Origin: an uncultured Paracoccaceae bacterium
Lineage (GTDB): Bacteria > Pseudomonadota > Alphaproteobacteria > Rhodobacterales > Rhodobacteraceae
DNA length: 64,000 nt
NCBI GenBank assembly: GCA_947493335.1
Contig: CANLQO010000001.1
Location: forward strand, 1 to 64,000
Direction of reading: 5' to 3'
The notes beneath the pieces were generated by a model. That model was not told the origin of the DNA and searched no databases. It was given only the letters and a program-made list of their open reading frames with translations. Below, piece after piece: positions 38,919 through 64,000 of the stretch. The stretch's first letter is position 1. Every line of letters begins with the position of its first letter. A program made the translations under genes and the position numbers.

Positions 38919-38976
38919 GGGCCCCGGGGCTGAAACGGAAGAGGTTAAGACCCCGGGGATCACGTGTGGAGGTGCT

Positions 38977-42443: not shown

Positions 42444-42620
42444 GGGCTGCCCCTGTCCAGAAGCGCAGGGTTTGGCAAAAAAATGCGCAATACAATGTCA
42501 CGTCACGGGCATTGCGTAAGGGCAACAAAACTTGGGGTTGTGGCAATACCGACCCCCATTTTCACCACGCCAAAGACCCCGATGAACTGGCCCTGACCCC
42601 CGCCGCTGACCACGCGCGGC

Positions 42621-42649
42621 TTGACAAAAAATCGACCTCCGCTGATGCT
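42621..42649 (+). promoter_or_regulatory. candidate promoter of the eCIS operon
   Basis: TTGACA at 42621-42626 and GATGCT at 42644-42649, 17 bp apart, in the 270-bp gap before the first eCIS gene. The -35 is perfect and the -10 weak. No other element in this gap was recognised. Confidence 0.35.
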
Positions 42650-42713
42650 TGAGGTGATTTGAGAGACGAACCACTGTCTGGCAATTTTGGCCTGAGGACG
42701 GGTTTGGGGGAAT

Positions 42714-43268
42714 ATGATTAGCGAGGCGCTGGAATATGTTCGCCGCGAGGTGCGTACGCATCTGAGTGTGACTGACACCGAGGTAAGGCTCGATTCCGCC
42801 CGCGTGATGAACGACAGCGGCGCGCAGGGGGCTGTGATCTCGCTCATCAACATCGAAGAAGAACCTGCCCTGCGGAATACCTCGCACACGACCGAGGTGA
42901 TGGGACGCGCGCATTATCGAGAGCCGTCCGTGTTTTTAAATCTGTACCTCTTGTTCAGTTTTGATTTTTCGGACTACGGGACCAGTCTTTTGAACCTTGG
43001 GCGCATCATCGAAATGTTCCAGAACCGCCGCTTTTTGAGTGCGGCGAATGCTGATCCGGGTCTGACGTTTCCGGTGGGCGTTGAGCGGCTGATTTTTGAG
43101 CATCACAACATGAGCTTTGAGGCGCTCAACAACCTGTGGTCGGTCATGGGCGGGTCGCATTATCCGTCGGTAATCTACAAGGTCCGGTTGCTAGAGATGC
43201 GGGATGCGCAGGCCCCGGCGCTTGCCGACGAGATCACGCAAATCGCAGTGGACACGGTGCGCAGATGA
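42714..43268 (+). CDS. eCIS DUF4255 protein (Afp16/Pvc16-like tail terminator)
   Basis: First gene of the eCIS operon; 184 aa. It has the family opening MISEALEYVRREVRTHL, a central VFLNLYLLFSFDFSDYG and the LWSVMGGSHYPSVIYKVRLLE end typical of DUF4255. Afp16-like proteins cap the sheath-tube and fix its length. ATG 42714 lies after TGGGGGAA. It overlaps the next gene by 4 bp. Confidence 0.88.
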   Translation: MISEALEYVRREVRTHLSVTDTEVRLDSARVMNDSGAQGAVISLINIEEEPALRNTSHTTEVMGRAHYREPSVFLNLYLLFSFDFSDYGTSLLNLGRIIEMFQNRRFLSAANADPGLTFPVGVERLIFEHHNMSFEALNNLWSVMGGSHYPSVIYKVRLLEMRDAQAPALADEITQIAVDTVRR

Positions 43269-44029
43269 GCTTTGTCATTTCCGTCAGCCGCTTTCTGTCC
43301 GTCGCCTTGCGAGACGAGACGGGCGCGGATGTAACGGAATTTGCCATTGCCCCAACGACCCGGACACGGGCGTTGATGTCAGACTACGGGATAATTTTTC
43401 GCGCGGTCACCGGCGGCTTTGCGCTTTACTACAAGACCAACCCATCGGTGCCGCAACCGCTAGTCAGTCCGATCAGCGATCAGGTGCGGTTCAGCTTTGA
43501 AATGACGGCGGCAGGGCCCGCGCCTGACAAGCTTTTCCAGGAATTGTCAGGGGCGGCTGGCGCACAGGTGTTGTTGGACAATCTGGATGGTGCGGGCGCG
43601 ATCCTGCCCGGTGGAGTGTTGACGGCGGCGGCAGAGGTCGGCGCGGGCGACCACGTCTTTGCGGGGCCAAAAGCCTACCCGGTGCGGGTTGATCTGGGTG
43701 GCGGTATTCCGGCACAGGTTGAGGCGCGCGACAGGTTCACGGACGCGGTCGCGGCGCAAGCACCAGTGGAGGATTTGGCGGCAGAACCTCCGGTCGCGCC
43801 GCCGCCCGGTGCAACAGAAGTTTTTACGACAATTGACGTCCCCGAGGCGGAGGCGGCCCTGCGGTTGGTCACCCCGGCCCCGGGCACATTGGACCGCTTG
43901 ATTTATGCGGACGATGAGATCGCCCAAGGCGCTGCCGTGGGGATCATTGATTTATTTTGGTCGGGTGCGCAAAGCGCTGTCCCGGCGGGTACAGGCATTG
44001 AGTACAGCGCCATTTTTCGGCGCCAATAA
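43265..44029 (+). CDS. unknown eCIS-associated protein, 254 aa
   Basis: I do not recognise a named family. It starts MSFVISVSRFLSVALRDE. Residues ~1-95 look like a beta-rich fold (YGIIFRAVTGGFALYY and QVRFSFEMT). An Ala/Gly-rich middle follows, then a Pro-rich linker (AEPPVAPPPGA) and a C-terminal beta-rich segment ending GIEYSAIFRRQ. It lies between the DUF4255 gene and the sheath gene and is coupled to the former. A collar, cap or sheath-assembly role is plausible by position only. Confidence 0.75.
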   Translation: MSFVISVSRFLSVALRDETGADVTEFAIAPTTRTRALMSDYGIIFRAVTGGFALYYKTNPSVPQPLVSPISDQVRFSFEMTAAGPAPDKLFQELSGAAGAQVLLDNLDGAGAILPGGVLTAAAEVGAGDHVFAGPKAYPVRVDLGGGIPAQVEARDRFTDAVAAQAPVEDLAAEPPVAPPPGATEVFTTIDVPEAEAALRLVTPAPGTLDRLIYADDEIAQGAAVGIIDLFWSGAQSAVPAGTGIEYSAIFRRQ

Positions 44030-44098
44030 TTTAGACCCCTTTGCGGGGACGCATTTTATCAGCCGGGCTTTGTGGCGCCCGATTATTGGAGGAAGACC

Positions 44099-45598
44099 AT
44101 GCGCACCTTGACTACGCCTGGCGTTTTTGTTGAAGAAATCGCCTCTTTTCCCCCGTCGGTGGCACCTGTCGCCACGGCCGTGCCGGGGTTCATCGGACAT
44201 ACGCGGCAAGCGGTCGAATTGAACGGGGATACGCTGACCAACGTGCCACGGCGCATCACGGCGCTGCTGGAATACGTGCGGCTCTTTGGCAGGCCTGCGC
44301 CGGCGGCTGTGTCGGTGCAAGTGACCAAACGGGTCAGCAGCGCGGGGGCAATCATCTCGACCGACGTGGGCTTTGCCACCGACCCGCCCGCCGTGCCGCC
44401 AGACCTGATGTATTACGCCATGCAGCACTATTTCGCCAACGGCGGCGGTCCCTGCTATGTGCTGTCCATCGGCTCGGAAGGGGCGGGACGGACAGAGGGT
44501 GCGTTCACCACGGGCATCACTACGATGCAGGCGGTTGACGAGGTCACGCTGCTGGTTTTCCCTGACGCCACGGTGCTGAGCAATACCCAGCACGGCAACG
44601 TCATGGTCGCGGCGCTGAATTCCTGTGCGGCCACGCAAGATCGGATTGCAGTGGCTGATGTGCATGGTGCCGTTGGCACGCCGCCTGATCCCTTCGCCAT
44701 TGGGGCTGCATTCCGCACCAATGTCGGCGCAAACTCAGAGGATTTGCTGAAGTACGGTTGCGCCTATTACCCCTATCTGCGCACCTCTTTGCCGCGGATT
44801 GTGGATGACACCACGATCACCATCGCCGGGGCGTCGCGATTGTCGACGCTAAATGATGATGGCACGACGACAGAGACGCCACTGTTTGATACGGATGCGG
44901 ATCCGACGACGGACAACGATATCACGTTGGACAACGATCTGGTGCAGGGTACGGCCTCAACACCGGGTGACAAGGCGGTGCTGAACGCGGTCAAATCCTT
45001 CCTGAGCGAGGACTATGTGACCCTGCCGCCTTCGGCCGCTGTTGCGGGGGCAATCGCCCGGCAAGACCGGCTGAAAGGTGTGCATTACGCGCCCGCTAAT
45101 ATCGGGCTGTTCAACACCATCGGCCCGGCACTGCCCATTACCAATGATCTGAACGGGAGGCTGAATGTTGATCCCACGGGCGGAAAGTCAATCAATGTGA
45201 TCCGCAACTTCACCGGCAAAGGCACGCTGATCTGGGGCGCGCGGACGCTGGCGGGCAACAGCAACGACAACCGTTATCTGAACGTGCGGCGGTTCCTGAA
45301 CTTTGCCGAGGAAAGCATCGAAAAGGCCGTGGGCGCATTTGTCTTTGCGCCCAATGACGCGAACACATGGGTGCGTGTGCGGTCGATGATCGAGAATTTT
45401 TTGGCCAACCAATGGCGCGCAGGTGCGCTGGTCGGGCCGAAACCCGAACAGGCGTTTCAGGTGCAGGTCGGACTGAACCAGACGATGACGGCAGATGACA
45501 TTCTGAACGGTCTTATGATCGTCCGGGTCGGTCTGGCGATCAGCCGCCCGGCCGAATTCATCGTGCTTCAGTTCGAACAATTGCAACAACAGGCCTGA
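44099..45598 (+). CDS. eCIS contractile sheath protein (Afp2/3/4-like)
   Basis: A 499-aa phage-type tail sheath protein. It starts MRTLTTPGVFVEEIASFPPSV, the canonical sheath N-terminus. The body has MYYAMQHYFANGGGPCYVLSIG. The C-terminal domain is characteristic: GTLIWGARTLAGNSNDNRYL, then NVRRFLNFAEESIEKAVG and AFQVQVGLNQTM. TTGGAGGAAG precedes the ATG. Only one sheath gene is present, whereas Afp encodes three. Confidence 0.95.
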   Translation: MRTLTTPGVFVEEIASFPPSVAPVATAVPGFIGHTRQAVELNGDTLTNVPRRITALLEYVRLFGRPAPAAVSVQVTKRVSSAGAIISTDVGFATDPPAVPPDLMYYAMQHYFANGGGPCYVLSIGSEGAGRTEGAFTTGITTMQAVDEVTLLVFPDATVLSNTQHGNVMVAALNSCAATQDRIAVADVHGAVGTPPDPFAIGAAFRTNVGANSEDLLKYGCAYYPYLRTSLPRIVDDTTITIAGASRLSTLNDDGTTTETPLFDTDADPTTDNDITLDNDLVQGTASTPGDKAVLNAVKSFLSEDYVTLPPSAAVAGAIARQDRLKGVHYAPANIGLFNTIGPALPITNDLNGRLNVDPTGGKSINVIRNFTGKGTLIWGARTLAGNSNDNRYLNVRRFLNFAEESIEKAVGAFVFAPNDANTWVRVRSMIENFLANQWRAGALVGPKPEQAFQVQVGLNQTMTADDILNGLMIVRVGLAISRPAEFIVLQFEQLQQQA

Positions 45599-45623
45599 TC
45601 CGCCCCATTGAACGGAGACCATC

Positions 45624-46055
45624 ATGGAACAATATCCGCTTCCTAAGTTTCACTTTCAGGTCGAATGGGGCGGCGCCCGCATCGGCTTTACCGAAGTTTC
45701 GGGCCTCGACGTGGAAACAGAGGTGATCGAATACCGCGAAGGCAACAGCCCGGAATATTCCAAACTGAAAATCCCCGGCATGCAGAAATACGCCAATGTC
45801 ACGCTTAAGCGTGGCGTGGTGCAGGCCGACAATGATTACTTCAATTGGTGGAATACCGTTGCGCTGAACAAGGTCGAGCGTCGCGATATCACGATCAGCC
45901 TGCTCAACGAGGAACACGCGCCGGTCATGGTCTGGAAGCTCAAGAATGCTTGGGCCGCTAAGATCCAGTCCACCGACCTCAAGGCCGATGGCAATGAGAC
46001 GGCGATCGAAAGCGTGCAGATCGTCTATGACTCCATGAGCATTCAGAACGAGTGA
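45624..46055 (+). CDS. eCIS inner tube protein 1 (Afp1-like, gp19 fold)
   Basis: A 143-aa phage tail tube-type protein (TIGR02241 group). It contains PKFHFQVEWGGARIGFTEVSGLD, YREGNSPEYSKLKIPGMQKY, VTLKRGVV and the C-terminal ESVQIVYDSMSI. It polymerises inside the sheath as stacked hexamers. The stronger match to the main tube subunit suggests this is the bulk tube protein. It is 25 bp after the sheath gene. Confidence 0.93.
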   Translation: MEQYPLPKFHFQVEWGGARIGFTEVSGLDVETEVIEYREGNSPEYSKLKIPGMQKYANVTLKRGVVQADNDYFNWWNTVALNKVERRDITISLLNEEHAPVMVWKLKNAWAAKIQSTDLKADGNETAIESVQIVYDSMSIQNE

Positions 46056-46065
46056 GTGCGGCACA

Positions 46066-46542
46066 ATGGTCGATGAGACGCTGCCGATCAACTATCCCTA
46101 TCAGCCGCCGGTCGGCTTTCACTTTCGGGTGGAATTCGACCTGCCGGATGCGGGGGATCAGGACATCCGTTTTCGCGAGGTGTCCGGCCTGAGCATGGAG
46201 TTGGAGGAAGAGACACTGAACGAAGGGGGAGAGAACCGTTTTGCGCACAAACTACCGGTGCGCGGGCGGTATCCTGATCTGGTGCTCAAACGCGGGCTGA
46301 TCCGCGACAGCGCGGTGGCAAAATGGCTGCGTGATGCGTTCCAGAACCCGATCACTGTGCCGTTTGTCCTGCCGACCACGATCTGGGTGACGCTGCTAAA
46401 TGACGCGCACGAACCGCTTGAGACCTATACGGTGCTGAATGCCTGGCCGAAGAAATGGACCCTTTCGGACTTTAACGCCGAAAGCAGCGACTACGTGGTT
46501 GAGACGCTTGAGCTGGCCTATTCCTACTTTCGGGTGAACTGA
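46066..46542 (+). CDS. eCIS inner tube protein 2 (Afp5-like, tube initiator)
   Basis: A 158-aa paralogue of tube protein 1 with the same scheme: FHFRVEFDLP, FREVSGLSMELEEE, LVLKRGLI, and VETLELAYSYFRV at the end. The sequence has diverged, and it has an extra acidic loop. By gene order it corresponds to Afp5, the ring joining tube and baseplate. The gap to the next gene is 2 bp. Confidence 0.9.
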   Translation: MVDETLPINYPYQPPVGFHFRVEFDLPDAGDQDIRFREVSGLSMELEEETLNEGGENRFAHKLPVRGRYPDLVLKRGLIRDSAVAKWLRDAFQNPITVPFVLPTTIWVTLLNDAHEPLETYTVLNAWPKKWTLSDFNAESSDYVVETLELAYSYFRVN

Positions 46543-46544
46543 AG

Positions 46545-46715
46545 ATGCCTGTTTTCATTAATGAAATTGTTTTTCGGGGCCGCGTGGAAGAGGCCCGCAA
46601 GCCACTGCCGGAAGCAGAGCGCAAGCGCGAGGATTGGGTCAACGACCGTGACCGGATCATTGCCGACGCGGTCAGCGAAGTGATGCGCCTATTGCGCCGG
46701 ATGGAGGAGCGATAG
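46545..46715 (+). CDS. eCIS DUF5908 small protein (Afp6-like)
   Basis: A 56-aa reading frame starting MPVFINEIVFRGRVEE and ending with an amphipathic helix (ADAVSEVMRLLRRMEER). The size, the start and the position between tube protein 2 and the Afp7-like protein match the DUF5908/Afp6 family. It fits exactly between its neighbours: 2 bp after one stop and 1 bp before the next ATG. The role is uncertain, perhaps a baseplate or assembly helper. Confidence 0.85.
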   Translation: MPVFINEIVFRGRVEEARKPLPEAERKREDWVNDRDRIIADAVSEVMRLLRRMEER

Positions 46716-46716
46716 A

Positions 46717-47421
46717 ATGGACGGTGCGCTTCTTAAGCTGACGATCCTGCCCTTTGACAGCTCGCGCACGTTCGCGGACGGGCCGCCATCGGGTCCGCCA
46801 TTTATCGCGCAGTTCAACCCTACAGAGCTGACCGACAGCTATGAGGTGGAACTTAACACGCAGGAAAACGCAGCCTCAAAGAACGGGACGGCGGCCAAGC
46901 AGAAATCGGTCAAGCCGCGCAGCTTTACCTTTGAATTGCTGCTTGATGGCTCTGGCGTCACCTCTGCCACCGGGCTGCCGGATCCGATCCCATCGAGCCC
47001 GATCACGCTCGCCGCGCAGTTGGAGTTGTTCAAGCGGACGACGACCTATTCAGGCAAAATCCACCGCAACCGGTACCTGCAACTCATCTGGGGTCCGTTT
47101 TTCGTCACCACCGTACTGCAAAGCTATTCGGTGACCTATAAGCTGTTCAATTCGCTAGGTATTCCGGTGCGCGCCACGCTATCGGCCACGTTCACTGAAC
47201 ACCGCGATGATGTGATCGGCAATCTTGAGGATGACAATTCATCGCCCGACGTGGCGCACGCGCATCTGGCGAGCACGAATGACGCGTTACCCAATGTGGT
47301 GAATGCGGTCTACAACGATCCACGTCGCTACATCGACATTGCAAGGGTCAACGGGCTGGACACGGTGCGCGCGCTGGCGGCCGGTACAGAGGTGCGCATG
47401 CCACCGGTGAGGTCACCCTGA
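46717..47421 (+). CDS. eCIS Afp7-like baseplate/tube adaptor with LysM
   Basis: A 234-aa protein of the CIS tube-adaptor family (gp53-like). The N-terminal domain has FIAQFNPTELTDSYEVELN and PRSFTFELLLDGSGVT. LIWGPFFVTTVLQSYSVTYKLF is the conserved middle. A C-terminal LysM-like segment reads YIDIARVNGLDTVRALAAGT. It joins the spike hub to the tube. It overlaps the spike gene by 1 bp. Confidence 0.9.
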   Translation: MDGALLKLTILPFDSSRTFADGPPSGPPFIAQFNPTELTDSYEVELNTQENAASKNGTAAKQKSVKPRSFTFELLLDGSGVTSATGLPDPIPSSPITLAAQLELFKRTTTYSGKIHRNRYLQLIWGPFFVTTVLQSYSVTYKLFNSLGIPVRATLSATFTEHRDDVIGNLEDDNSSPDVAHAHLASTNDALPNVVNAVYNDPRRYIDIARVNGLDTVRALAAGTEVRMPPVRSP

Positions 47422-49148
47422 TGGTTCTGGACCTTGGAACAGATACCTCGCTGACCACCGTGACGCTTTTGGTGGATGGAACGGATGTGACCAACGAGTT
47501 GGTCATCATTTCGATTGAGACGGGGCGGATGCTGGACCGCATTCCTTACGCGCAGATCGTGTTTCAGGATGGCGACCCGGCGGAGCAGACTTTTGCCCTC
47601 AGCGAGGGGCCCCTTTTCCCGCCGGGGGCCGAGATTGAGATCCTGGCAGGTTATCAGCTGGATAATGAGCCGATTTTCAAAGGGATTGTGACGCGACAGC
47701 GGATCGAGGCACCGCTGCATGGGTCCAGCCGACTTTATGTCGACCTGCGCCATCCGGCGTTTCGCATGGGCCATGCCCGCAAAAGCAGGATTTGGTCAGA
47801 AGTCACGGATGCCGATGCCGTGGGCGAGATTGCGCAGGGCCATGGGATCAATTTTGACGGATCTTCGCCAACAGTGCGCCCGACACTTGTGCAGCATCAG
47901 GCGACGGATTGGGATTTTACCGTGCAGCGTGCGCAGATGGTGGGGCAGGCGGTTCTGGCCGAGGATGGCGGGCTGAAGTTGGTGACGCCCGGTCCCGGTT
48001 CGCCCGAGGCTGATGTGGAATATGGCGCGGATGTCTTCGCAATCGAGATGGAGTTCGACGCAGAGCGGCAGCCAACTGAAGTGGAAACCGGCGCATGGGG
48101 TGCAGCGGATCAGTCTGTCGCCACAGCGGCGAGTGCGGGACCGCCTTTTGTAGGTCCGGGAAACACGGATTACGCGGGGTTTGGCGATGTCGCCGGGTTA
48201 ACACCCCGCGAAAGGGCCAGCGGCGCGCGTGATCAGGCAGAGCTGGATGAATGGGCCGGGGCGGATGCGCTGCGTCGCCGGATTTCGGCCCTGCGTGGGT
48301 TGGTCGAATTGCAAGGCAAGGCGATCTATCAGCCGGGCATGACCGTCACGCTGATCGGGCTGGGCGAGCGGTTCAACGGTCCGGCCTATGTTACCGGTGT
48401 GCGCCATCAGATCGGGCGCGGCGACTGGCGCAGCTTTTTGCAAATCGGGTTGGACCCGGAGTTTCACGCACAGCGCGTCACCGTTGATGCACCGGCGGCG
48501 GCAGGGCTATTGCCCGGCATTCGTGGGTTGCATGTGGGTGTGGTTGACGCGCTGGAAGGCGACCCCGCGGGCGAAGAGCGGGTGGCGGTCAATTTGGTCA
48601 GTGAGACGGAAACCAACGAAGTGGTCTGGGCGCGACCGCTGTCCATTGGCGGCGGTGCGGATAGGGGATTGGTGCTGTTGCCTGAGGTAGGCGACGAGGT
48701 ATTGCTGGGATTTCTGGACGGTGATCCGCGAGACCCGATCCTGCTGGGCGGCGTGCATTCTTCGGCTGCGGCGAGCCCGTATCCGGGCGCAGATGATAAC
48801 CATATCAAGGGGTTGGCGTCACGTGCGGGGATCAAGATCAGCTTTGACGACGATGCGGTGGTGCTGACGCTCGAGACACCGGGCGGCCACAAAGTACTGC
48901 TGGATGATGATGGCGGAGAGATTCTGGCCGAGGATTCCAACGGCAACTCCATCACGCTGAGCAGCGACGGTATCGCGCTGGAATCCGCCGCCGATATCAA
49001 GCTGAAAGCGACGGGCGATATCGCGCTTGAAGGGACCAACGTCTCGCTCAAGGCGACGGCCGAGGTCACGGCAGAAGGCTCTGCCGGGGCAACACTGAAA
49101 AGCGACGGATCGACCACCATCAAGGGGTCGGTCGTGATGATCAACTAG
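47421..49148 (+). CDS. eCIS central spike protein (Afp8, VgrG/gp27-gp5-like)
   Basis: A 575-aa trimeric hub and spike. The gp27-like part spans ~1-360. An OB-fold gp5-like domain follows (RGLHVGVVDALEGDPAGEER to GGVHSSAAASP). The C-terminal beta-helix has regular hydrophobic repeats such as ITLSSDGIALESAADIKLKA. It ends GSVVMIN, where the PAAR tip sits. The gene for that tip is next. Confidence 0.93.
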   Translation: MVLDLGTDTSLTTVTLLVDGTDVTNELVIISIETGRMLDRIPYAQIVFQDGDPAEQTFALSEGPLFPPGAEIEILAGYQLDNEPIFKGIVTRQRIEAPLHGSSRLYVDLRHPAFRMGHARKSRIWSEVTDADAVGEIAQGHGINFDGSSPTVRPTLVQHQATDWDFTVQRAQMVGQAVLAEDGGLKLVTPGPGSPEADVEYGADVFAIEMEFDAERQPTEVETGAWGAADQSVATAASAGPPFVGPGNTDYAGFGDVAGLTPRERASGARDQAELDEWAGADALRRRISALRGLVELQGKAIYQPGMTVTLIGLGERFNGPAYVTGVRHQIGRGDWRSFLQIGLDPEFHAQRVTVDAPAAAGLLPGIRGLHVGVVDALEGDPAGEERVAVNLVSETETNEVVWARPLSIGGGADRGLVLLPEVGDEVLLGFLDGDPRDPILLGGVHSSAAASPYPGADDNHIKGLASRAGIKISFDDDAVVLTLETPGGHKVLLDDDGGEILAEDSNGNSITLSSDGIALESAADIKLKATGDIALEGTNVSLKATAEVTAEGSAGATLKSDGSTTIKGSVVMIN

Positions 49149-49157
49149 GACGACAAC

Positions 49158-49451
49158 ATGCCTGCTGCCGCACGGATCACCGATTTCCATAGCTGCCCGC
49201 AAGTCACGCCTGCGGGGTCACCGCATGTAGGCGGGCCGGTGATAGGACCCGGCGCGCCGACGGTACTGATTGCCGGAACACCCGCCGCCGTGGTGGGTGA
49301 CAGTTGCACCTGTGCCGGGCCGCCCGACACGATTGTTGCAGGCTCTGGCACGGTCATGATCGGCGGTGTGCCTGCCGCGCGCATGGGTGACAGCACCGCG
49401 CATGGCGGATCGATTGCCGTCGGCGCCCCCACCGTCATGATCGGAGGATAG
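49158..49451 (+). CDS. eCIS PAAR-repeat tip protein (Afp10-like)
   Basis: A 97-aa PAAR protein that sharpens the spike. It starts MPAAARITDFHSCPQ and shows paired PAAR motifs: APTVLIAGTPAAVVGD and GTVMIGGVPAARMGDS. The candidate metal ligands are His/Cys in FHSC, SPH, CTC and TAHGG. It has no extra C-terminal domain, so it is not itself a PAAR-toxin fusion. Confidence 0.95.
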   Translation: MPAAARITDFHSCPQVTPAGSPHVGGPVIGPGAPTVLIAGTPAAVVGDSCTCAGPPDTIVAGSGTVMIGGVPAARMGDSTAHGGSIAVGAPTVMIGG

Positions 49452-49454
49452 CGG

Positions 49455-49850
49455 ATGGCGATCGAAGACCCCTTCATCGGCACCGGCTGGTCCTTCCCGC
49501 CTCGTTTCGACAACGGCGAGGTGACAGTGACAGGCGGACAGCAAAGCATCTCCGAAAGCCTGCGGATCATCGTCGGTACGCAATTGGGCGAGCGCCTGAT
49601 GCGCCCGGATTTCGGCTGCGGCATGGATGGAGAAGTCTTTGGCCTGATGAACACCAGCCGCTTGACCTGGGTGGAAAACGTCGTGCGCCGGGCGATCCTG
49701 CTGCATGAACCACGCATCGACGCGCGCGAGGTCAGCGTCACCTCTGACGGGCCAGAGGGGCGGCTGACAGTCGAAGTGGGATATGAGGTCCGCGGCACCA
49801 ATTCGCGCTTTAACGTGGTCTTTCCGTTCTACCTTGAGGCTGCGACATGA
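49455..49850 (+). CDS. eCIS baseplate wedge protein (Afp9, gp25-like)
   Basis: A 131-aa gp25/lysozyme-like baseplate protein. It has IGTGWSFPPRF, ISESLRIIVGTQLGERLMRPDFGCG, and the EPR-core equivalent EPRIDAREV in ILLHEPRIDAREVSV. It initiates sheath polymerisation on the baseplate. The order PAAR before gp25 is the reverse of Afp9-Afp10. It overlaps the next gene by 4 bp. Confidence 0.94.
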   Translation: MAIEDPFIGTGWSFPPRFDNGEVTVTGGQQSISESLRIIVGTQLGERLMRPDFGCGMDGEVFGLMNTSRLTWVENVVRRAILLHEPRIDAREVSVTSDGPEGRLTVEVGYEVRGTNSRFNVVFPFYLEAAT

Positions 49851-56400: not shown

Positions 56401-56553
56401 CCCGACGTGCTGGCAACGGCGAGCGATGCGCTGATCGCGTTGCTTGACCGTCTGCGCACCGTTTACCCGCCCGCGACGCTGCATGACTGCGATGAGGCTG
56501 GCGATGATGACAACCTTGTCCGTCTGGGCGCAACCAATCTTGGCCTTTTCTGA
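53485..56553 (+). CDS. eCIS baseplate protein (Afp12-like)
   Basis: A 1022-aa partner of Afp11 in the baseplate wedge. The N-terminus has NHNSPDPGITMMETLAYALTDLAYR, a conserved baseplate pattern. A long alpha/beta body follows. Close to the C-terminus lie a compact Cys cluster (VCLDEDCAFCGEEDPYSF) and the Afp12-type block LDFRRYAERLLREECPAHI with ICWID. It overlaps Afp11 by 4 bp and is 12 bp from the next gene. Confidence 0.88.
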   Translation: MKVQEFIPRQSVLPGAQNYDDLRALGLERIQMLAGDIWTNHNSPDPGITMMETLAYALTDLAYRNDFPMRDLMTGPDGRIGTAAETGLFPAEEVLTTAPVTIDDHRRLLLRITGVKNAWLDPMTDPGQPNYRDSETPIWADCLADALSHDALNADGGENHPVKLSGLYGVLVELETDDRLGALSDTALVTTIRAGPLKGVVISIDHATPFGPPQSAPRIDGPIAPTTVEVSNLTDVGNGVEFGADLRALDGATEIGMVAGLEITVLEDRPRRAPAPIPVTLADLQTALATPGPDGPAAMFLQKREARRRAMVAVERVLHAHRPLCEDYLSLETVAPFRVGVCADIDLLPEADLEAVEAAILHAIATYLNPAPVFETLDALLARAVPADEIFNGPYIDFGFTVEGREVFTKPGFLTEEALENCALRTRVHASDLINIIVDLPGVRAVRNLTLRAYDGQGVPIGESESWTLDVPPGQQPVLFAAGTKLLLFKNELPYRAQPAETAQTLAHLQALARSALYVPPDQVLPAVSGKWRALDAVYSVQNDLPPLYGTSEAGLDPDTPIERVAQARQLKAYLTFFDQALADYLGQLTAARKMLSPASIDRMWHTPYLDGLPGLRDDFADEFYADPVALADDTTRTRLNETEDQFLDRRARALDHLIARFGERFADYALMSFRLSGERLKTAEALLQDRADFLADYPKVSRERGKGYNQRPEDAAEVWDSENVAGLVRRSARLLGMDPAAGPLQRDLHCSALFDALFAPRAQAGAFVVVIRGPGAQRLLTSEETFATAEAALDAARLFEFALIRAETYEVDDSAGVGAVRLRLTAGEQTLTAQRQFDTPQDAVAAARAIIDRHNLLLGSELCQSEGMHLIEHILLRPRRPGDDMFKVCLDEDCAFCGEEDPYSFRISIVLPYWPERFADLDFRRYAERLLREECPAHIHPRICWIDNAQMAELDAAHRAWRAARAADPVDPDVLATASDALIALLDRLRTVYPPATLHDCDEAGDDDNLVRLGATNLGLF

Positions 56554-56565
56554 GGGAGATACGCG

Positions 56566-59500
56566 ATGACCATTCAGTCCTTCTATCCGATTTTTGAACA
56601 CGGACAGGTGCTGACCTCTGCCCAGCTGAACACAATGGTTGATTACCTGGAGCAGCAGGATCGGCTGTCGCGCCGGACGCTCAGCGGGGTGGGTGTCGTT
56701 TGTGGGTTTGATCTGGACCGCACTGGCACAAGGGTCGAGATTTCGCGCGGCGTCGCGGTCACGTCCGAAGGGTTCCTGATCACCTCAGAGGCGCACAGTT
56801 ATGACCGCGTGCGGTCTTATCAGGTGCCGGTGCCCACCGCAGAAGAGGCCACCCCAGAAGACATCGCAGAGGCGCAATATCCGTTTCTGTTTGCCGATGA
56901 CGGAACGCAGATCCCGGTGTTGGAATTGGTCGACACCGATTTTGTCGCCGCCCCCGGAGAGGATGACCCGCGCGCGATCACAAACGCCGATCTGAACGGC
57001 GGCGTTGTGATGCTGTTTCTGGAAGCAGAGCGTGCATCGCCCAAAAGTTGCGATGTGAATGATTGTTCCGATAAGGGGGCCGAGCGGCGATTTGCCCTGC
57101 GGCGGTTGTTGTTAAGCCGGGCGCAGGCCGAGGCGATCATTGCGCAGGAAGCCGGGATTGCCGCGCGTCCGGTGGACCGTGGTCGCCATCCGCGTCTTGA
57201 TCTGCCCTATTTGCGGATCGAAAAGCTGGCGCTGGCCCGTGTGGGGGTCGACAATTTTGGAGCGTTGATCGAGCGGACGCTGGTGATATCGCAAAAACTG
57301 GCGAGCCAGCTTCCGCAGGCCTTGCGTGATGCGCATGGCGCATACGGCTATCTGCTGGACGACATGTTCGCACCGGGCGAAGACCCATTCCCAGACGGTT
57401 ATTTTGGCAATGTCTGGGGGCAGTTGGCGCAGAATATTTTCCTTGTGCAGTATTTCTACGATTACATGCGCGATGTCGGCATGGCCTATAATGAATTTGT
57501 CGAAACCGCCGCGCGGTTCGAGACAGAATGCATGCCGAACCCCGCCCGTTTCCCGCGCCACGTGCTGCTCGGAGATGTGACTGACGCGCCTGACGCCTTT
57601 GCCATCGACTTTGCGACACCTGCTGATGTGCTCGCTTTCAGTCCGCAGTCCGCGACCAGTGGTGCGGGCCTGGGCGTGCGACCTGCGTTGCGGCGGACCC
57701 ATTTCATTCCGTCGCCTGCACATGAAAGTACCGATCTGGAGGATCTGCGCGCGCTTTTCCTGCGGATGCATCTGCTGGCGCTCAACTTTGATCTGAACGA
57801 TCGGCTGACCGCACCTATCCGGATTACGCCAAGCCGGGATGATGCGGCCCCGCTGTCTGAGCGCGCGATGCCGTTCTACTATGCCTTTGACCAAGGCTCT
57901 GATCTGTTTCGCAACTGGTCGCCGCGCAAAACCCGCGCGAACCTTCTGAACACGGTTTATGCCTACCGGTTCAACCCGCCGGATGCGAACCATCCGCTGG
58001 CCTTTCGGATCGACGATCAGGACTTCTACCGGATCGAGGGTATCGTCGGCAAACCGCTTGGTTCTGCCATGGCCGAACTGATCGCCTGGAAGCGCGAACT
58101 GGGCCTGTCCTTTGCGATTGAGCCGGTTTACATGCGCCTGTCCACCGGTGCGGATGACCGTGATGGCTCCGCCCTGGATACGGCGGCATTGGCTGCATTG
58201 CTTGAGGTGCTGCGCAAGCTTCTGTTGTGCCGGATGTCGGACTTTGACGCGCTGCTGCTGACGTTGCTGCGCACGCTGTTTGCGTTGATCGTCTTTATCG
58301 TGCGGGCAATTGCGACGGCTCTTGCCAATCTTCAAACGCCGCCCCCGCCAGCGCCCCAGCCGTCAGATACAGCCGCGGATAATGTCACACTACGGCCCGG
58401 TGCGATGTTGAATTTTGACCCGGTTGTCTCGGCCCGCTTTATCAGCAACCTCAACCCCGAAGAGCAGGCTCAGCTTAAGCAGGAAGCCTATCTCATTCAG
58501 TCGCAGCTGAAGGGGCGAACATTGGTGCGCGGCGATGCGCTCAAACTCGCGGTGCCAGAGGTGCAGTCGGAAAGCATCGGTGCTGTTTATCAGGCAGTGC
58601 AGGATGATGCAGCAGGCGGCAACCTATTTGACCGCACGCAGCAGTTCGTGCAACGCGCCGGTGGCGACGAAGAGGACACGCAGATCGTCTATGCACAAGT
58701 GGCGATGCTGGATCAGGGCGATCAGATGATGCGGGTGCTGAATGTCGGCCGGACGGCAGATCTGGACTTCGCCGCACTTGAAACCGCCTATAGTGGCTTT
58801 TCGCGCGCCTCGCGCAATTATGCCCAGATCGTCGGGGCGATGCCTGAAAAGGTGAGCACGCCACCCGAAGAGACAGCGCAGATCGCTTCTGCAGCCGACA
58901 CAATTGCATCAGAAGGGACCGCTTTTGCGGTTTCGAACCTGCGGGATGAAATTGGGCGGGTACTGATCAACCTGCTCAACAGCCTGACGCTCGACGGCTT
59001 TGCGCAGCGCCATCCGGGGTTGGAACATTCTGCCGGTGTGCCCAAGGGCGGCACTTTTGTGCTGGCCTATGTGGGCCGGGTCGAGCTGGAACAGCATCTG
59101 CGCACCATTTCCGAAAAGTTCAGTGCCCGCAGCCAGTCGGTGGCCAATATTCTGGGCAATGACACGGTGGTGAATATCCAGAACGCCTTGCAAGAGTTGC
59201 AGAAATCGGTGGGCGGGCGAACGCCTGAGCCTTTGGACAATTACGTGGTCCTTGCCGATTTCTGCCTGCCCTATAAGTGCTGTGATAGTGATTGTTCGGA
59301 TGTGGAATTGTCAGAATCGATCCTGGCTGATCCGTTCGGGCGCGACTTTTCACCCGAACCGATGGCGGTGCCGCCAGTTACGGGGCAAAGCCCCGCGGTT
59401 CCATCCATTCCACGTGGTCCGGATGACTTTATCGCACCGCGTCCCGTCGTGGTGGTGAACCGCGCCTTTGAGAACCGGCCTGTTGTGGATGTCCGCGCAT

Positions 59501-59979
59501 TTGAACGGCCGATTGGCATTGATGCGCTGTTACGCGACAGGCTGACGCCGGGCGGGATCGTTACACCGACTCCGGGCGGGATCGTTGCACCGACGCCGGG
59601 TGGTATTGTTACGCCGACCCCGGGCGGGATTGTCACGCCTGCGCCGGGTGGGATCGTCACACCGACGCCCCGCGAACCTATTACTCCGGTGCCCCGAGAG
59701 CCTGTGGCACGGGATGTGGGTGTCATAGCAGGCACCGTTGTCATGGCGCGTGGCAACCGTGACATCCCGGTGCCCGGCGCGGAGGTGATTGTGGAATTGG
59801 AAGACGGGTCACAGATGACCGAAACGACCAATCGCAGCGGAGCGTTCCGGATGGAGGTTCCGGCCGGAGACATGCGGATCAGGGCAACAGCAGGGACTTT
59901 GTCTGGTCGGCGCCGCGGCATCACGCTGGATGCCACCGAAGAGCGCGAGATGACGCTGCGCATCACGGCGCTGCGGTAG
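56566..59979 (+). CDS. unknown large eCIS protein, 1137 aa, with repeat linker and C-terminal Ig-like domain
   Basis: Not assignable to a named Afp subunit. Residues ~1-110 (SFYPIFEHGQVLTSAQLN, then YLEQQDRLSRRTLSGVGVV) look like a conserved eCIS-associated head. A hydrophobic helix spans ~562-589 (LLLTLLRTLFALIVFIVRA), interrupted by two Arg. It is followed by PPPPAPQ. Residues 994-1033 are five 8-residue TPGGIVTP-type repeats. The end (~1051-1137) resembles a carboxypeptidase regulatory or prealbumin-like domain (VPGAEVIVELEDGSQMTETT, then GAFRMEVPAGDMRIRA). Two Cys-rich motifs occur (SCDVNDCSD and CLPYKCCDSDCSD). A fibre, anchor or surface-decoration role is possible. Confidence 0.8.
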   Translation: MTIQSFYPIFEHGQVLTSAQLNTMVDYLEQQDRLSRRTLSGVGVVCGFDLDRTGTRVEISRGVAVTSEGFLITSEAHSYDRVRSYQVPVPTAEEATPEDIAEAQYPFLFADDGTQIPVLELVDTDFVAAPGEDDPRAITNADLNGGVVMLFLEAERASPKSCDVNDCSDKGAERRFALRRLLLSRAQAEAIIAQEAGIAARPVDRGRHPRLDLPYLRIEKLALARVGVDNFGALIERTLVISQKLASQLPQALRDAHGAYGYLLDDMFAPGEDPFPDGYFGNVWGQLAQNIFLVQYFYDYMRDVGMAYNEFVETAARFETECMPNPARFPRHVLLGDVTDAPDAFAIDFATPADVLAFSPQSATSGAGLGVRPALRRTHFIPSPAHESTDLEDLRALFLRMHLLALNFDLNDRLTAPIRITPSRDDAAPLSERAMPFYYAFDQGSDLFRNWSPRKTRANLLNTVYAYRFNPPDANHPLAFRIDDQDFYRIEGIVGKPLGSAMAELIAWKRELGLSFAIEPVYMRLSTGADDRDGSALDTAALAALLEVLRKLLLCRMSDFDALLLTLLRTLFALIVFIVRAIATALANLQTPPPPAPQPSDTAADNVTLRPGAMLNFDPVVSARFISNLNPEEQAQLKQEAYLIQSQLKGRTLVRGDALKLAVPEVQSESIGAVYQAVQDDAAGGNLFDRTQQFVQRAGGDEEDTQIVYAQVAMLDQGDQMMRVLNVGRTADLDFAALETAYSGFSRASRNYAQIVGAMPEKVSTPPEETAQIASAADTIASEGTAFAVSNLRDEIGRVLINLLNSLTLDGFAQRHPGLEHSAGVPKGGTFVLAYVGRVELEQHLRTISEKFSARSQSVANILGNDTVVNIQNALQELQKSVGGRTPEPLDNYVVLADFCLPYKCCDSDCSDVELSESILADPFGRDFSPEPMAVPPVTGQSPAVPSIPRGPDDFIAPRPVVVVNRAFENRPVVDVRAFERPIGIDALLRDRLTPGGIVTPTPGGIVAPTPGGIVTPTPGGIVTPAPGGIVTPTPREPITPVPREPVARDVGVIAGTVVMARGNRDIPVPGAEVIVELEDGSQMTETTNRSGAFRMEVPAGDMRIRATAGTLSGRRRGITLDATEEREMTLRITALR
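59545..59664 (+). repeat. five in-frame 24-bp coding repeats
   Basis: Five tandem 24-bp units inside the 1137-aa protein gene, each encoding (T/A)PGGIV(T/A)P. The units differ at several third positions while the protein stays the same, so the repeat is old enough to have drifted and is kept by selection. Two degenerate units (TPREPITP and VPREPVAR) follow. Confidence 0.95.
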
Positions 59980-59988
59980 GGCAGGGCG

Positions 59989-61338
59989 ATGGCGCTCGAC
60001 CGGTTTTCAGGGCAGGCGCACAGGATCAGGCGCGTCCGGTTTGAAGTTTCGGCAGCGCAAGAGGCCGACCTGATGACCCTGCGCCAAAAGGCGGAAGTGG
60101 CCGGGCATCACGCCCTGCAAGAGGCCTTGCGCCGACCGTTTGATGCGGTCGCCGGACCGAAGAAGGTGTTGCAGATTGACCGGCTGGAGGTTGATCTGGG
60201 ACAGCTTGAGCCTGACGCAGGATTTGATGTCGAAACACTGGCTGATGCGGTGGCGACGGCACTTGAAGCTGCCCTTGCCGCGCCGTCACAGGAGGATACC
60301 TTACCTCCATTGGATGCAGTTGATGATGCAGCCAGAGTGGAGGTTGCTTGGCATTCTACGCGGGCCCTGCGCGAACAGGCATTGTTGGCCTATCTCCAAA
60401 CCGGTGCTTTGCCCGAAACCGCACCGGAACGAGGTCTTTCGGACCTTGTTGCAGCATTGTTTGAAAGTGCCATCACTACACCATTTGCCACAAAGGTTTT
60501 TGCGCTGATCCGCGACCATCCGGCCGTAGCGTTGCGGGTCATGCACGTCCTGCACACGCTGGACATACTGGTTCTGGCGCGGGTCTGGTCTGAACTGCAA
60601 TTGTTGCCCGTGGATGTGACGGTTGGGGCCATTCGGGACCTTGTCGAAGCTGCGGACACGTCCGGTGGGCTGATGCTCATCGCGCGGCAGTTCCGCGCCA
60701 TGTTGCAAGGAAAGAAGCCGGACCGCGTTGCCCCACCATCGTCACGAACCACAAAGGCGCGCGAGGTGCTTGATCGGGCGAGGATGACCCCCAAAGTGCC
60801 CGGAACTGAGGACGGCGGGCCGGATGACTCGCATGCACCTCTTTCGGATTTGGATTTTCTGACGCTTCCCGACGCGGGGATGGTGTTGATCGCGCCATAT
60901 CTGCCGCGCCTTTTTGATCGGCTTGACCTTGATCCATCCGGAGAGACCGTCATCACCGCCGCGCGCTTGATCCATTGGTTGGCCCATGGGCATGACGCCG
61001 CACAAGAGCCTGACCTTTTGATGGCGCGTGTGCTTCTGGACGTACCGCCACTGATCGCACTGATCGACGACACGCCGTTGTCAGAGGCCATGCAGCGCGG
61101 GGCGGAAAGCCTGCTGGACGCCGTCATCAGCCATTGGCCACAGCTGGGCAAGACATCCCGCGCCGGGTTGCAAGAGACGTTCTTGCAGCGCCCCGGGTTA
61201 CTGCGTCAGACCGAAAGGGGCCCGGAAATCACCGTCGAAACACGGGGTGTTGACGTGCTTCTGTCTGGTATCAGTTGGTCCTATTCGCCGCTTTACCTGC
61301 CGTGGCGCAGACAGCCGATCCGGGTGGATTGGACATGA
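59989..61338 (+). CDS. CIS tape-measure-type protein (Afp14-like position)
   Basis: A 449-aa protein resembling the family annotated as contractile injection system tape measure protein. The N-terminus has IRRVRFEVSAAQEADLMTLR and VLQIDRLEVDLGQLE. The middle has GMVLIAPYLPRLFDRLDL, and the end is WSYSPLYLPWRRQPIRVDW. These are the family's usual conserved points. It is thought to set tube length or to assist assembly. At 449 aa it is short. It is coupled by ATGA to the DUF4157 gene. Confidence 0.75.
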   Translation: MALDRFSGQAHRIRRVRFEVSAAQEADLMTLRQKAEVAGHHALQEALRRPFDAVAGPKKVLQIDRLEVDLGQLEPDAGFDVETLADAVATALEAALAAPSQEDTLPPLDAVDDAARVEVAWHSTRALREQALLAYLQTGALPETAPERGLSDLVAALFESAITTPFATKVFALIRDHPAVALRVMHVLHTLDILVLARVWSELQLLPVDVTVGAIRDLVEAADTSGGLMLIARQFRAMLQGKKPDRVAPPSSRTTKAREVLDRARMTPKVPGTEDGGPDDSHAPLSDLDFLTLPDAGMVLIAPYLPRLFDRLDLDPSGETVITAARLIHWLAHGHDAAQEPDLLMARVLLDVPPLIALIDDTPLSEAMQRGAESLLDAVISHWPQLGKTSRAGLQETFLQRPGLLRQTERGPEITVETRGVDVLLSGISWSYSPLYLPWRRQPIRVDWT

Positions 61339-64000
61339 AGCAAGCCGCGCAGCAGGTCCGAAAACCCGAAAGTGGTCGGGGTCAGTCGGCGGCAGCGCGA
61401 CCCTTTTTTGCGCCGGTGCAGGCCAAGCTGAACGTTTCAACGCCGGGAGAGAAGTTGGAACAAGAGGCCGACCATGCCGCCGACGCAGTGGTGCACCGGC
61501 GGGGCCCGATGGCGCGTGGGGTCGCGATTTCCAAACGCATGACACCGATTGCGCAACGCGCAGCGGAAGACGCCCAGATGGCGTCTGAACGGGCAAGTGA
61601 TCCGGCATGGACAGAGCATGAACCGGCCTCTTTGATGCGCCCGGGTGTCGTCGAAGACGAACCCCTGCAGATGAAGGAAGAAGAGACCGCTCAGACCAAG
61701 GAAGACGACCGCGTACAGGCCATGGAGGAGGAAGAAGCGGTTCAGGCCAAGGACGAGGAAGCAAAGGAAGAAGAGCTTCAAACCAAGGAAGAAGACGCGC
61801 AGGCCAAAGAGGAGGAGACACAGGCGCAGGAGGAGGAGACACGGGCCCAGGAGGAAGAAGAATCCATTCAGGCCAAAGACGACGACGCGCAGGCGCAGGA
61901 GGAAGAGAAGGCCGTGCAGGCGCGCGAGGAAGAAGACGCGCAGCGCGCCGAAGAAGAGGAAGAGTTGCAGCGGGCCGAGGAAGAAGAGCTGCAGACCAAA
62001 CCCGCAAAGCCGCTGCTTTCGGCGCACGCGACGCGCATGCAAACCGTCGAGCGGCAACTGCGTGCCTCGCGCGGGCGCGGCAACCCCTTGCCCGAAGGGG
62101 TTCGCCAGAAAATGGAGCAGGGCCTGGGGGCTGATTTTTCCGGCGTGCGCATTCACACCGACCACCCGGCCTTTCTGATGACGCGGATGCTGAATGCCAA
62201 GGCCTTCACCAGCGGGCGCGATATCTATTTTTCACCCCATCGGTTCGCACCCGGCAGTGCCAGCGGGGATCATTTGCTGGCCCATGAACTGGCCCATACG
62301 CTGCAACAGGCCGCTGTCCCGGTGCGGGAAGAGGCGGTTGCCCAACGGGTCGCTGAAGAGGATCAGGTCAGCGTCCGGCCCGAGGCGCTGATGGCACTGC
62401 GGGTTGCGCGCAGCCACATCGGCAAGATCAACTCAAAAATGCTGGGCGAGGACGGATATCGCATTGGTTGGAAACGACTTCTGGACATCTTTCGCACCTC
62501 CTATGGGGGCGATGTTATCCATCCGGTGCTGATCAAGAAGATTGTCGCAGAGCCACATGATTTGCCGCATTGGTGTGGGGTATTTGCATGGCATGCGTTG
62601 CGCAAGGCGGGCTATCCGCTGCCCAACTGGAATGCCTCTGGCCGGATGCTGGAAAACACTTTGCAGCGTCCGCCCGGCGAGCTGCCGCAGATCGGGGATA
62701 TCGCTTACCGGCAAAAACTGCCGTGGATGCCGGACAGCGCGCCGTTGACCCACCATCAGGCGCTTGTGTCCGGGGTAGAGGCGCATGCAACGGCAACGGG
62801 TAAGAACTTCAAACAGATCCTTGTGCGCACGGTCGATGGCAACACCGCAGGCACCAATAATCTGGGCGGTCAGGTCGAAGAATCCTGGCAACCTATCGGC
62901 AATTGGGACGCCTTCTTTGACCCTGCGGGCAAGGTGCAGATGCCAGAGACCGAGCGCGTCACTGTGGACCGCTCTGATGTAGAAACCACTGTTGAACCGG
63001 CGAAGGATGATGCCCCGCAACCTCAGGCCGAGGTCGCCGCGACGGACGTGACTGATCTTGAAAAAGACGTCACGCCCGAGGCAGAAGCCTTGCCCGGGCC
63101 AGAGGCGGACGTCGCCGTCGATCTGGACCTGCCCCCTGCGGTCGAAATGGAAGCCGAGCCTGCCGCCAAGGTCGAGAAAGTCGCGCTTGACGGAAAGTCA
63201 GATGCCGCCGCAGTGGGCTTTACCAAGGCAAAACCAAGTTCCATGGCGCTTTCGGCACCTGATCTGGGCGGCGCGCTGGACGCAAAAACCCGTCAGGAGA
63301 AGAAAGAAACCGCCAAGGAAACGCCGGAGCTCAAGGCGCAAACCGGCGGCGCAGTTGATCCGGCGATCACCGCGCCGGGTGAAATTCCGGTGCCCGAGGA
63401 TGTGACGCTGAACGCCGATCAGAACGGGCCGGAAGTGGGTGAGATCAAGCCCGATCCCTACGTTGAAAAGGGCAAAGCCCCCAGTGCAGCAGGCAGCTAT
63501 ACCGGGCAGCAGATGGCCAAGCAGGCCGATGGCGGCGGATTTTTCGACTGGCTCAAGAAGCAGTTCACGAACCTGTTGAACTCAATCAAGACCGAGGACA
63601 ATAGCGTCAATACATCTGCAGGACCCAAGCAGCGCGTGGCGCTGACTGGCAAGGCCGATGTGGGTCAGATGGCGCGGCAGCGGGTCGATGGGACGGCGCG
63701 GCTTCGAGAAGAGCGTGACAGGAAGGTTGCCGATTTCAAGGGTCATCCGGGGCAATCCAATATCCAACTGCGCAAGGTGGATCAGGGATTCAAGCCCGAA
63801 CAGGCACCCGAACCGGCGGAACCGATTGATGCCTTAAGCCCGGACAGCAATGTCGCCGACTACGCGGCGGCCGAATGGCCCGCCGACTTCCGCGATGCGG
63901 CGGATGCCAAGATGAGCAAAAAGCTGGAAGGCGGCATGGCCAAGGCGCGGGCAGATGCGCAAAAGGCCGGCGCGGACCGGGACGCCGAAAAGTCCGCTGC
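61335..64000 (+). CDS. DUF4157 (eCIS core domain) protein with CHAP/papain-like domain, 3' end outside the window
   Basis: An open frame of at least 888 aa with no stop before the window edge. Residues ~113-221 are a Glu/Gln-rich repeat with EEE and VQAK/LQTK motifs. Residues ~250-327 are DUF4157 (NPLPEGVRQKMEQGLGADFSGVRIH with HELAHTLQQ), with HExxH at 317-321. Downstream, Cys414 (PHWCGVFAWHALRKAG), His473/474 (THHQALV) and Asn503 (TVDGNTAG) sit as in CHAP/papain-like hydrolases. A Pro/Glu/Ala-rich tail then continues. DUF4157 marks eCIS cargo or cargo-loading proteins. ATG 61335 overlaps the tape-measure stop. Confidence 0.85.
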   Translation, partial: MKQAAQQVRKPESGRGQSAAARPFFAPVQAKLNVSTPGEKLEQEADHAADAVVHRRGPMARGVAISKRMTPIAQRAAEDAQMASERASDPAWTEHEPASLMRPGVVEDEPLQMKEEETAQTKEDDRVQAMEEEEAVQAKDEEAKEEELQTKEEDAQAKEEETQAQEEETRAQEEEESIQAKDDDAQAQEEEKAVQAREEEDAQRAEEEEELQRAEEEELQTKPAKPLLSAHATRMQTVERQLRASRGRGNPLPEGVRQKMEQGLGADFSGVRIHTDHPAFLMTRMLNAKAFTSGRDIYFSPHRFAPGSASGDHLLAHELAHTLQQAAVPVREEAVAQRVAEEDQVSVRPEALMALRVARSHIGKINSKMLGEDGYRIGWKRLLDIFRTSYGGDVIHPVLIKKIVAEPHDLPHWCGVFAWHALRKAGYPLPNWNASGRMLENTLQRPPGELPQIGDIAYRQKLPWMPDSAPLTHHQALVSGVEAHATATGKNFKQILVRTVDGNTAGTNNLGGQVEESWQPIGNWDAFFDPAGKVQMPETERVTVDRSDVETTVEPAKDDAPQPQAEVAATDVTDLEKDVTPEAEALPGPEADVAVDLDLPPAVEMEAEPAAKVEKVALDGKSDAAAVGFTKAKPSSMALSAPDLGGALDAKTRQEKKETAKETPELKAQTGGAVDPAITAPGEIPVPEDVTLNADQNGPEVGEIKPDPYVEKGKAPSAAGSYTGQQMAKQADGGGFFDWLKKQFTNLLNSIKTEDNSVNTSAGPKQRVALTGKADVGQMARQRVDGTARLREERDRKVADFKGHPGQSNIQLRKVDQGFKPEQAPEPAEPIDALSPDSNVADYAAAEWPADFRDAADAKMSKKLEGGMAKARADAQKAGADRDAEKSA

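Follow-up and report, generated by a model that had tools for sequence, protein, structure and literature searches.

A predicted contractile injection system of the crown-fibre class, with an apolar fibre helix, in an uncultured Paracoccaceae bacterium

A row of closely packed genes in an uncultured Paracoccaceae bacterium raises the question of which contractile machine it encodes, what that machine would deliver and where it would be mounted. The genes lie at positions 42714-64000 of contig CANLQO010000001.1 (assembly GCA_947493335.1), a contig of 2.05 Mb of which the first 64 kb (64,000 nucleotides) are hereafter the window. An earlier note on this DNA had read them as an extracellular contractile injection system (eCIS) operon, and Pfam families and solved-structure matches bear out the reading as an injection system: judged by its predicted products, the locus can securely be assigned to the contractile injection systems (CIS) of the eCIS/AFP-like superfamily. 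The epithet 'extracellular' should not be taken for granted, since a thylakoid-anchored CIS is among the nearest solved relatives (PMC8894136) and the fibre protein found here has a transmembrane-like helix; the algae, protists or other bacteria proposed earlier as targets are conjectural. We further propose, with a probability of about two in three, that it encodes a complete CIS of the AlgoCIS/thylakoid-CIS class (the eBAP4 crown-fibre class) which would load and inject a nuclease effector. The gene set and its homologies were read directly, while from studied relatives we infer how the machine would be assembled, loaded and fired and that its cargo would act as a nuclease. 

Calling of open reading frames (ORFs) gave fifteen consecutive intact plus-strand genes, overlapping or with short gaps, the number given in the earlier note. 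Two starts were corrected: that of the second gene is 43265 instead of 43136, and that of the DUF4157 gene is the ATG at 61335, overlapping the Cis14 stop. The fifteenth gene crosses the window end and stops at 66857. Products were identified by Pfam scans, and those without a Pfam name were compared with solved structures; the 56-aa Cis6 stood outside the Pfam scan. The features, with the matches on which their names rest, are:

42714..43268, plus strand: Cis16A, tail terminator/cap (Pvc16_N, DUF4255); PF14065, E = 4e-29
43265..44029, plus strand: probable Cis16B, cap adaptor, 254 aa; by position and a three-relative profile against All3326 (7b5i), E = 0.0016
44072..45598, plus strand: Cis2, contractile sheath; PF17482, E = 4e-9; best structure match All3325, E = 2e-118
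45624..46055, plus strand: Cis1a, inner tube (gp19); PF06841, E = 2e-47
46066..46542, plus strand: Cis1b, inner tube (gp19); PF06841, E = 5e-40
46545..46715, plus strand: Cis6 (DUF5908-type), spike plug, 56 aa; by size, position and a 64% orthologue in the same-family genome G101
46717..47421, plus strand: Cis7 (CIS_tube), tube-baseplate adaptor; PF19266, E = 4e-32
47421..49148, plus strand: Cis8, VgrG-like spike; PF04717, E = 2e-17; TIGR01646, E = 2e-40
49158..49451, plus strand: Cis10, PAAR tip; PF05488, E = 3e-23
49455..49850, plus strand: Cis9, GPW_gp25 wedge; PF04965, E = 4e-21
49847..53488, plus strand: Cis11, long baseplate J protein, 1213 aa; All3317 (1231 aa), E = 1e-128; 7aeb_G, E = 5e-111
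53485..56553, plus strand: Cis12, baseplate, 1022 aa; All3315, E = 4e-126; Alg12, E = 1e-105
56566..59979, plus strand: Cis19, crown or eBAP4 tail fibre, 1137 aa; All3314, E = 2e-42; 9wt0 chain a, E = 6e-41
58246..58302, plus strand: codons of the transmembrane-like, clade-specific helix of Cis19 (residues 561-579)
59989..61338, plus strand: Cis14, CIS tape measure protein (CIS_TMP); PF19268, E = 2e-69
61335..64000, continuing to 66857, plus strand: Tme-like effector, eCIS_core (DUF4157), 1840 aa; PF13699, E = 3e-28; PF13930

Sheath, tube, spike, PAAR, gp25, baseplate J and DUF4255 cap genes thus stand in one operon with an AAA+ ATPase gene, which had been expected to the right of the window and was indeed found there: it is Cis15, on the same contig at 66861-68213, 3 bases after the effector gene. 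The two large or mid-size members described earlier as unknown are Cis12 (53485-56553) and Cis19 (56566-59979), and the fibre gene that was to be sought beyond the window is Cis19 itself, inside it. The sheath matched PF17482 above and PF04984 under the respective cut-off, and the single PF17482 match in the genome is the Cis2 of the present locus. The Baseplate_J Pfam match of Cis11 (E = 0.005) fell under its cut-off; the protein is as long as cage-bearing homologues, a comparison of length alone. As a single sequence, the 254-aa product had no match among solved structures, and it is probably Cis16B. That these genes are a defective remnant or a temperate phage tail has no point in its favour and is very improbable, given intact ORFs, orthologous loci in divergent hosts and no capsid or terminase Pfam match among the products scanned at 40.1-78.9 kb (Cis6 unscanned). 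The same scans gave no TssJLM-type match at the locus, which on Pfam matches is neither a phage nor a type VI secretion system (T6SS). A TssM-type gene of the T6SS is present on a separate contig (C2).

Within the superfamily, the Cis19-type fibre N-terminal domain together with Afp11 and Afp12 homologues places the operon in the eBAP4 class. In a fibre catalogue of 2026 this fibre class was defined by the first 200 residues of the crown protein of the thylakoid CIS (tCIS), comprises 402 genes and is associated with immunoglobulin (Ig)-like and carboxypeptidase-regulatory domains (PMC12923769); the C-terminal domain of the Cis19 found here is CarboxypepD_reg, Ig-like (PF13620). A four-sequence Cis19 profile matched All3314 at E = 2e-93 and 9wt0 chain a at E = 1e-100, the latter aligned, as a likeness to AlgoCIS, across profile positions 3-892. 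We take 9wt0 chain a to be the AlgoCIS fibre Alg19.

With the tCIS of Anabaena PCC 7120 (7b5h/7b5i; PMC8894136) the locus shares a Cis16A/B cap (Cis16B probable here), the sheath, Cis12, Cis19 and a Cis11 of nearly equal length. In that paper all3314 is named Cis19, with no AFP homologue reported, and the machine is anchored in the thylakoid via the transmembrane helix of Cis13 (All3316), a trimeric fibre (PMC8894136). In contrast, the operon described here has no Cis13 gene, its host is not a cyanobacterium, and its Cis12 has 1022 aa against the 1335 aa of All3315, whose large extension is 610-1100. No counterpart of Cis13 was found within the operon, all genes of which were otherwise assigned (the search for Cis13 was confined to the operon); because the Cis11 and Cis12 genes overlap by 4 bases, no gene lies between them, where Anabaena has Cis13. 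AlgoCIS of Algoriphagus machipongonensis (7aeb, 9wt0; PMC8894135) likewise has Alg11- and Alg12-type proteins and DUF4157 cargo, but with two DUF4157 cargo proteins (PMC8894135) where we find one long Tme-like protein. The core sheath-tube-baseplate genes are shared with AFP and PVC as well; unlike those systems, the present operon has no Afp13-type fibre gene, has one sheath gene and carries PAAR ahead of gp25. In AFP, gp25 stands ahead of PAAR (Afp9-Afp10). The earlier note had singled out this order as a swap; the order is as it described, but it is normal for the class, since PAAR lies upstream of gp25 in 72/72 loci in which both genes were detected (84 loci scanned). By its predicted products the gene set is that known as the eBAP4 class, and an apolar helix in Cis19 sets it apart as a variant.

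Relatives were obtained by scanning named species genomes with the Cis19 alignment, which confirmed 219 loci, the best 80 of which, plus a few others, were used. Most of the relative loci that are full-length share the gene order Cis8-Cis10-Cis9-Cis11-Cis12-Cis19-Cis14-Tox-Cis15, Cis11 and Cis12 are spaced by less than 150 bases in 72/79, and the best DUF4157 match lies downstream of Cis15 in eight (L037, L070, L072, L075, L076, L080, L082 and L115). G101 has orthologues for 13 of the 16 gene products in the same order, at 36-82% identity, in a comparison that left out its sheath and two tube genes. A Cis12 tree with 81 rows, computed by a quick method without bootstrap and with composition warnings for many rows, places the window in three nested groups, each with an SH-aLRT support of 100. 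The innermost (7 rows) holds, besides the window, G101, Tateyamaria sp. syn59 and four loci of Roseibium/Labrenzia; the next (13 rows) adds three Pseudomonas and three alphaproteobacterial metagenome-assembled genomes (MAGs); and the widest (19 rows), the clade of the following paragraphs, takes in Ningiella, one Desulfobacterium MAG, one Methylococcaceae MAG and three Bacteroidota as well. The nearest loci, G101 and Tateyamaria (Roseobacteraceae), are consistent with the Roseobacter-type genome suggested earlier, and the mixed host taxa of the relative set fit horizontal transfer. A near-complete eBAP4-type CIS set, without annotation in the collection, was also seen on pPspA13b of Pararhizobium sp. 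A13 (L035), a 1.5 Mb rhizobial plasmid of root nodule origin. Three other CIS loci of the family (L020, L021 and L022, in G375, G001 and G072) have Cis12, Cis14 and Cis15 homologues, and Cis11 in 2/3 stretches; since they had no Cis19 match within the stretch read, two or more types of CIS apparently occur in the family.

By analogy with the studied machines, the Cis2 sheath and the Cis1a/b tube would be built on a Cis7-Cis12 baseplate, with Cis14 as the ruler and Cis16A/B as the cap, and trimers of Cis19, the operon's one recognisable fibre, would form the crown or fibre beneath the baseplate. The 1840-aa DUF4157 protein would be the cargo, probably loaded by the AAA+ protein Cis15; Pvc15 was described as assisting effector loading into PVC (PMC11495950). 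Contraction would drive the tube into a membrane and free the cargo, whose apolar helical part may ease entry and whose C-terminal nuclease may cut DNA or RNA.

In the effector, a conserved N-terminus and a Glu-rich stretch precede eCIS_core (with HELAH) and a conserved domain at about 350-535; further on come residues 1121-1500, which are conserved and contain apolar windows, and the C-terminal nuclease domain (PF13930). PF13930 was recovered in 10/14 effector tails scanned, and H149 is invariant across the alignment of the 14 tails. With DUF4157, apolar helices and an EndA-like nuclease bearing an RGH motif, the protein is Tme-like: Tme of Streptomyces davawensis is built alike, including the long apolar/coiled middle and a C-terminal nonspecific endonuclease that accounts for the CIS phenotypes (PMC11126660). 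It differs from Tme in the extra conserved domain at residues about 350-535 and in the place of its gene, which stands between Cis14 and Cis15 instead of ahead of the baseplate genes. Geller et al. (PMC8213781) described DUF4157 proteins that combine very long linkers with toxin domains at the C-terminus. Two Roseibium effectors (L042 and L043) share 82-93% identity in five segments to residue 1500 and 17% beyond, and by these identities the C-terminal cargo domain is exchangeable between close relatives. In Labrenzia sp. DG1229 (L044:14527-19894) the effector gene consists of two overlapping ORFs, unlike that of its close relative L045, from either sequencing error or inactivation.

The architecture shared with Tme (PMC11126660) would also suit an intracellular CIS that acts on its producer or kin, with lysis and DNA release by the nuclease and no foreign target. 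The 3-base gap between the effector gene and Cis15 leaves no adjacent immunity gene there, as such self-action would predict; however, Streptomyces-type intracellular CIS were assumed to be fibreless (PMC12923769), whereas this operon encodes a fibre that ends in an Ig-like domain, and we consider self-action improbable.

The conserved domain at 350-535 was found in 15/18 clade loci (two of the 15 partial, L047 and L054) and in 4/65 others, with a profile built from clade members and hence matching them by construction. Twelve members gave no meaningful Pfam match (one: DUF6003, E = 0.05), and the best PDB match had E = 3.6. C414, H474 and N503, singled out by analogy with CHAP enzymes, are invariant in 12/12 rows (12 of the 15 effectors, without L026, L047 and L054), as 3 of 53 invariant columns. 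A CHAP/NlpC-P60 amidase reading was rejected for want of a significant profile match in Pfam, PDB or hhalign. In hhalign the probability was at most 1.4%, in a test that is weak, since a control of NlpC against CHAP was likewise low; CHAP scored best (19.0, with landmarks in register), NlpC 14.1 and three other effector regions 12.4-16.9, so that CHAP likeness is a lead. A search of the open-access literature on eCIS with a CHAP domain gave one mycobacterial review.

What sets the locus apart within its class is the helix at Cis19 residues 561-579, whose Kyte-Doolittle hydropathy of 2.31 is that of the most apolar 19-residue window among the CIS structural proteins (others at most 1.71) and falls within the range of windows of the neighbouring PucC (1.64-2.64). 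We compared the top 19-residue window within 120 residues after each protein's own position 530 in the 19 clade members (L055 Cis19 taken from its larger ORF) and in 63 other Cis19, drawn from the best 80 of 219 loci plus a few others, a sample favouring the clade. Clade maxima ranged from 1.99 to 3.51 (median 2.73); a threshold of 1.6 was passed by 19/19 clade members against 4/63 others, one of 1.8 by 19/19 against 1/63, and one of 2.0 by 18/19 against 0/63. On the octanol scale, clade minima were -10.2 to -22.2 against a median of -1.7 in the others, 2/63 of which passed -8 (lowest -10.6), the groups overlapping at the edge. The aligned helix in other readable members is CRFxDLExLYD(xL), which is amphipathic; at this position AlgoCIS has CHFEDLMVLLDAWNDEI, polar in 9wt0 chain a, while All3314 was unaligned at that place and its helix is outside the comparison. 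A single change accounts for the apolar trait on the Cis12 tree (79 labelled rows), as it does on a Cis19 tree built with residues 1-515 alone (82 rows, support 94), and because it is a single evolutionary event, Fisher values for the clade contrast overstate independence. Its retention at 29-50% identity (best segments) argues for function.

Such a helix could insert into a target, or it could fix the loaded machine in the producer's cytoplasmic or photosynthetic membrane, as the Cis13 helix does in Anabaena, the nearest solved system, which is thylakoid-anchored via a fibre transmembrane helix (PMC8894136). The operon has no Cis13 gene, yet the other fibre carries an apolar helix clade-wide, on two hydropathy scales and as a single change on two trees, and photosynthetic reaction-centre genes (PF00124) are present in the genome, on contig C2. 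Direct contact of the crown with a membrane is, as predicted from these features, possible at slightly less than even odds; that the clade turned an amphipathic crown-fibre helix into a transmembrane helix by which a crown without Cis13 would fix the machine is unlikely. A single helix would split across the membrane two conserved crown regions whose alignment to AlgoCIS is continuous. The flank charges show no clear topology (net charge higher C-terminally in 12/19 and equal in 5; K+R counts higher N-terminally in 9, C-terminally in 7 and equal in 3 of the 19 members). PF00124 occurs in 6/14 family genomes (13 with a Cis14 match plus the congener G333), but not in the nearest relative G101, and the clade takes in Pseudomonas. 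The word 'transmembrane' is absent from the main text of the fibre catalogue (PMC12923769), and a search of open-access literature on CIS tail-fibre transmembrane helices turned up only the Anabaena paper and a Xenorhabdus genome paper.

The helix may instead be merely the buried trimer core of the fibre in an ordinary released eCIS, to which we grant a chance not far below one half. Conserved crown regions flank it on both sides, the homologous helix is amphipathic in other members, and in the majority of the clade even the face of lowest apolarity is close to neutral (median 0.52, lowest -0.3; others median -0.94, highest 0.56), being clearly apolar in some members only. High windows also occur elsewhere in other Cis19, in the N-terminal domain (residues 39-57; several Mucilaginibacter loci, with values up to 2.11, and e.g. 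L063) and at 706-738 in L075 and L076 (2.11 and 2.14); hydropathy above 2.0 alone is therefore no proof of a membrane helix. However, in L052 and L053, the most extreme of the clade, all helix faces are apolar (least apolar face 2.18 and 3.0), whereas a three-helix core should retain a polar outer face.

The genomic setting was compared with two congeners (G333 and G1109), in both of which window 34000-37000 is conserved at 82%. There was no DNA match to them in 37001-44000 or in contig positions 66800-76400, and from 76400 the puc region matches them at a distant place; the part between, 44000-66800, was covered by protein search, with no Cis14 match in G333 and no Cis12 match in G333 and G1109. 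The locus is within a stretch of about 39 kb (37001 to about 76400) not found in the two congeners, the ends of which are uncertain because its flanks lie far apart in them. Its G+C of 0.604 equals that of the left flank.

Besides the CIS, this stretch holds LuxR/hydrolase, LysE, patatin, endonuclease/phosphatase-family, membrane patatin, HEAT, nSTAND and TIR genes. The LuxR-type (GerE) regulator and alpha/beta hydrolase domain (under cut-off) lie on the minus strand at window 37020-39029, 3.7 kb upstream of the CIS; GerE genes adjoin 25.8% of eCIS loci (PMC8213781). Two patatin-like genes bracket the CIS, at window 40114-42443 and downstream at L002:8285-10837, the upstream one with an N-terminal apolar helix and followed by the endonuclease/exonuclease/phosphatase-family gene, the downstream one under its Pfam cut-off and with apolar helices. 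On the minus strand of contig positions 70821-76230, a HEAT-repeat protein with apolar helices, an nSTAND1 NTPase and a TIR-domain protein stand in a row that looks like a defence or signalling module; PADLOC gave no match for the seven proteins submitted on the patatin, TIR, nSTAND and HEAT question. We rejected these genes as parts of the system, PADLOC being empty and a patatin homologue being flagged in 0/84 relative loci (short flanks). The puc genes (a light-harvesting antenna subunit and PucC, contig positions 76381-78918) adjoin the stretch about 10 kb downstream of the CIS; their adjacency was discarded as a sign of a photosynthetic-membrane CIS, given that G101 has no PF00124 and puc lies elsewhere in the congeners.

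Several points weigh against a complete CIS that injects a nuclease. The locus is known from its genes alone, the particle and its activity being predicted. The effector tail by itself barely reaches the PF13930 cut-off of 27 (27.2 bits), and the whole effector misses it (23.2 bits). Homologues are rare and patchy: Cis14 matched 13/394 drawn genomes of the family and Cis12 5/398 of the phylum, the own genome counted in each, and the one Cis19 match in 385 drawn genomes of the class is the own genome. Since the two congeners gave no CIS match, the locus may also have been acquired recently, and a use of it in the host is putative.

In the open-access PMC literature we found no paper on alphaproteobacterial eCIS, judged by titles, and none on eCIS in Rhodobacteraceae; papers naming Roseobacter, Rhodobacterales or Labrenzia were plasmid-toolkit, coral-settlement and Algoriphagus species-description papers only. 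Released, membrane-mounted and intracellular machines are told apart among CIS, but sequence alone rarely shows to which of these a locus belongs; an apolar crown-fibre helix that marks a clade is a concrete predictor of the mode of action, open to test, and among the clade's hosts are cultured strains of Roseibium/Labrenzia and Pseudomonas, which are perhaps workable in the laboratory. The clean C-terminal exchange between close effector relatives shows where cargo specificity sits. If anchoring by the crown were true, it would add another kind of CIS mount to the T6SS membrane complexes and the anchor formed by Cis13, in a clade spanning marine alphaproteobacteria, pseudomonads and some Bacteroidota, and here in a bacterium with photosynthesis genes.

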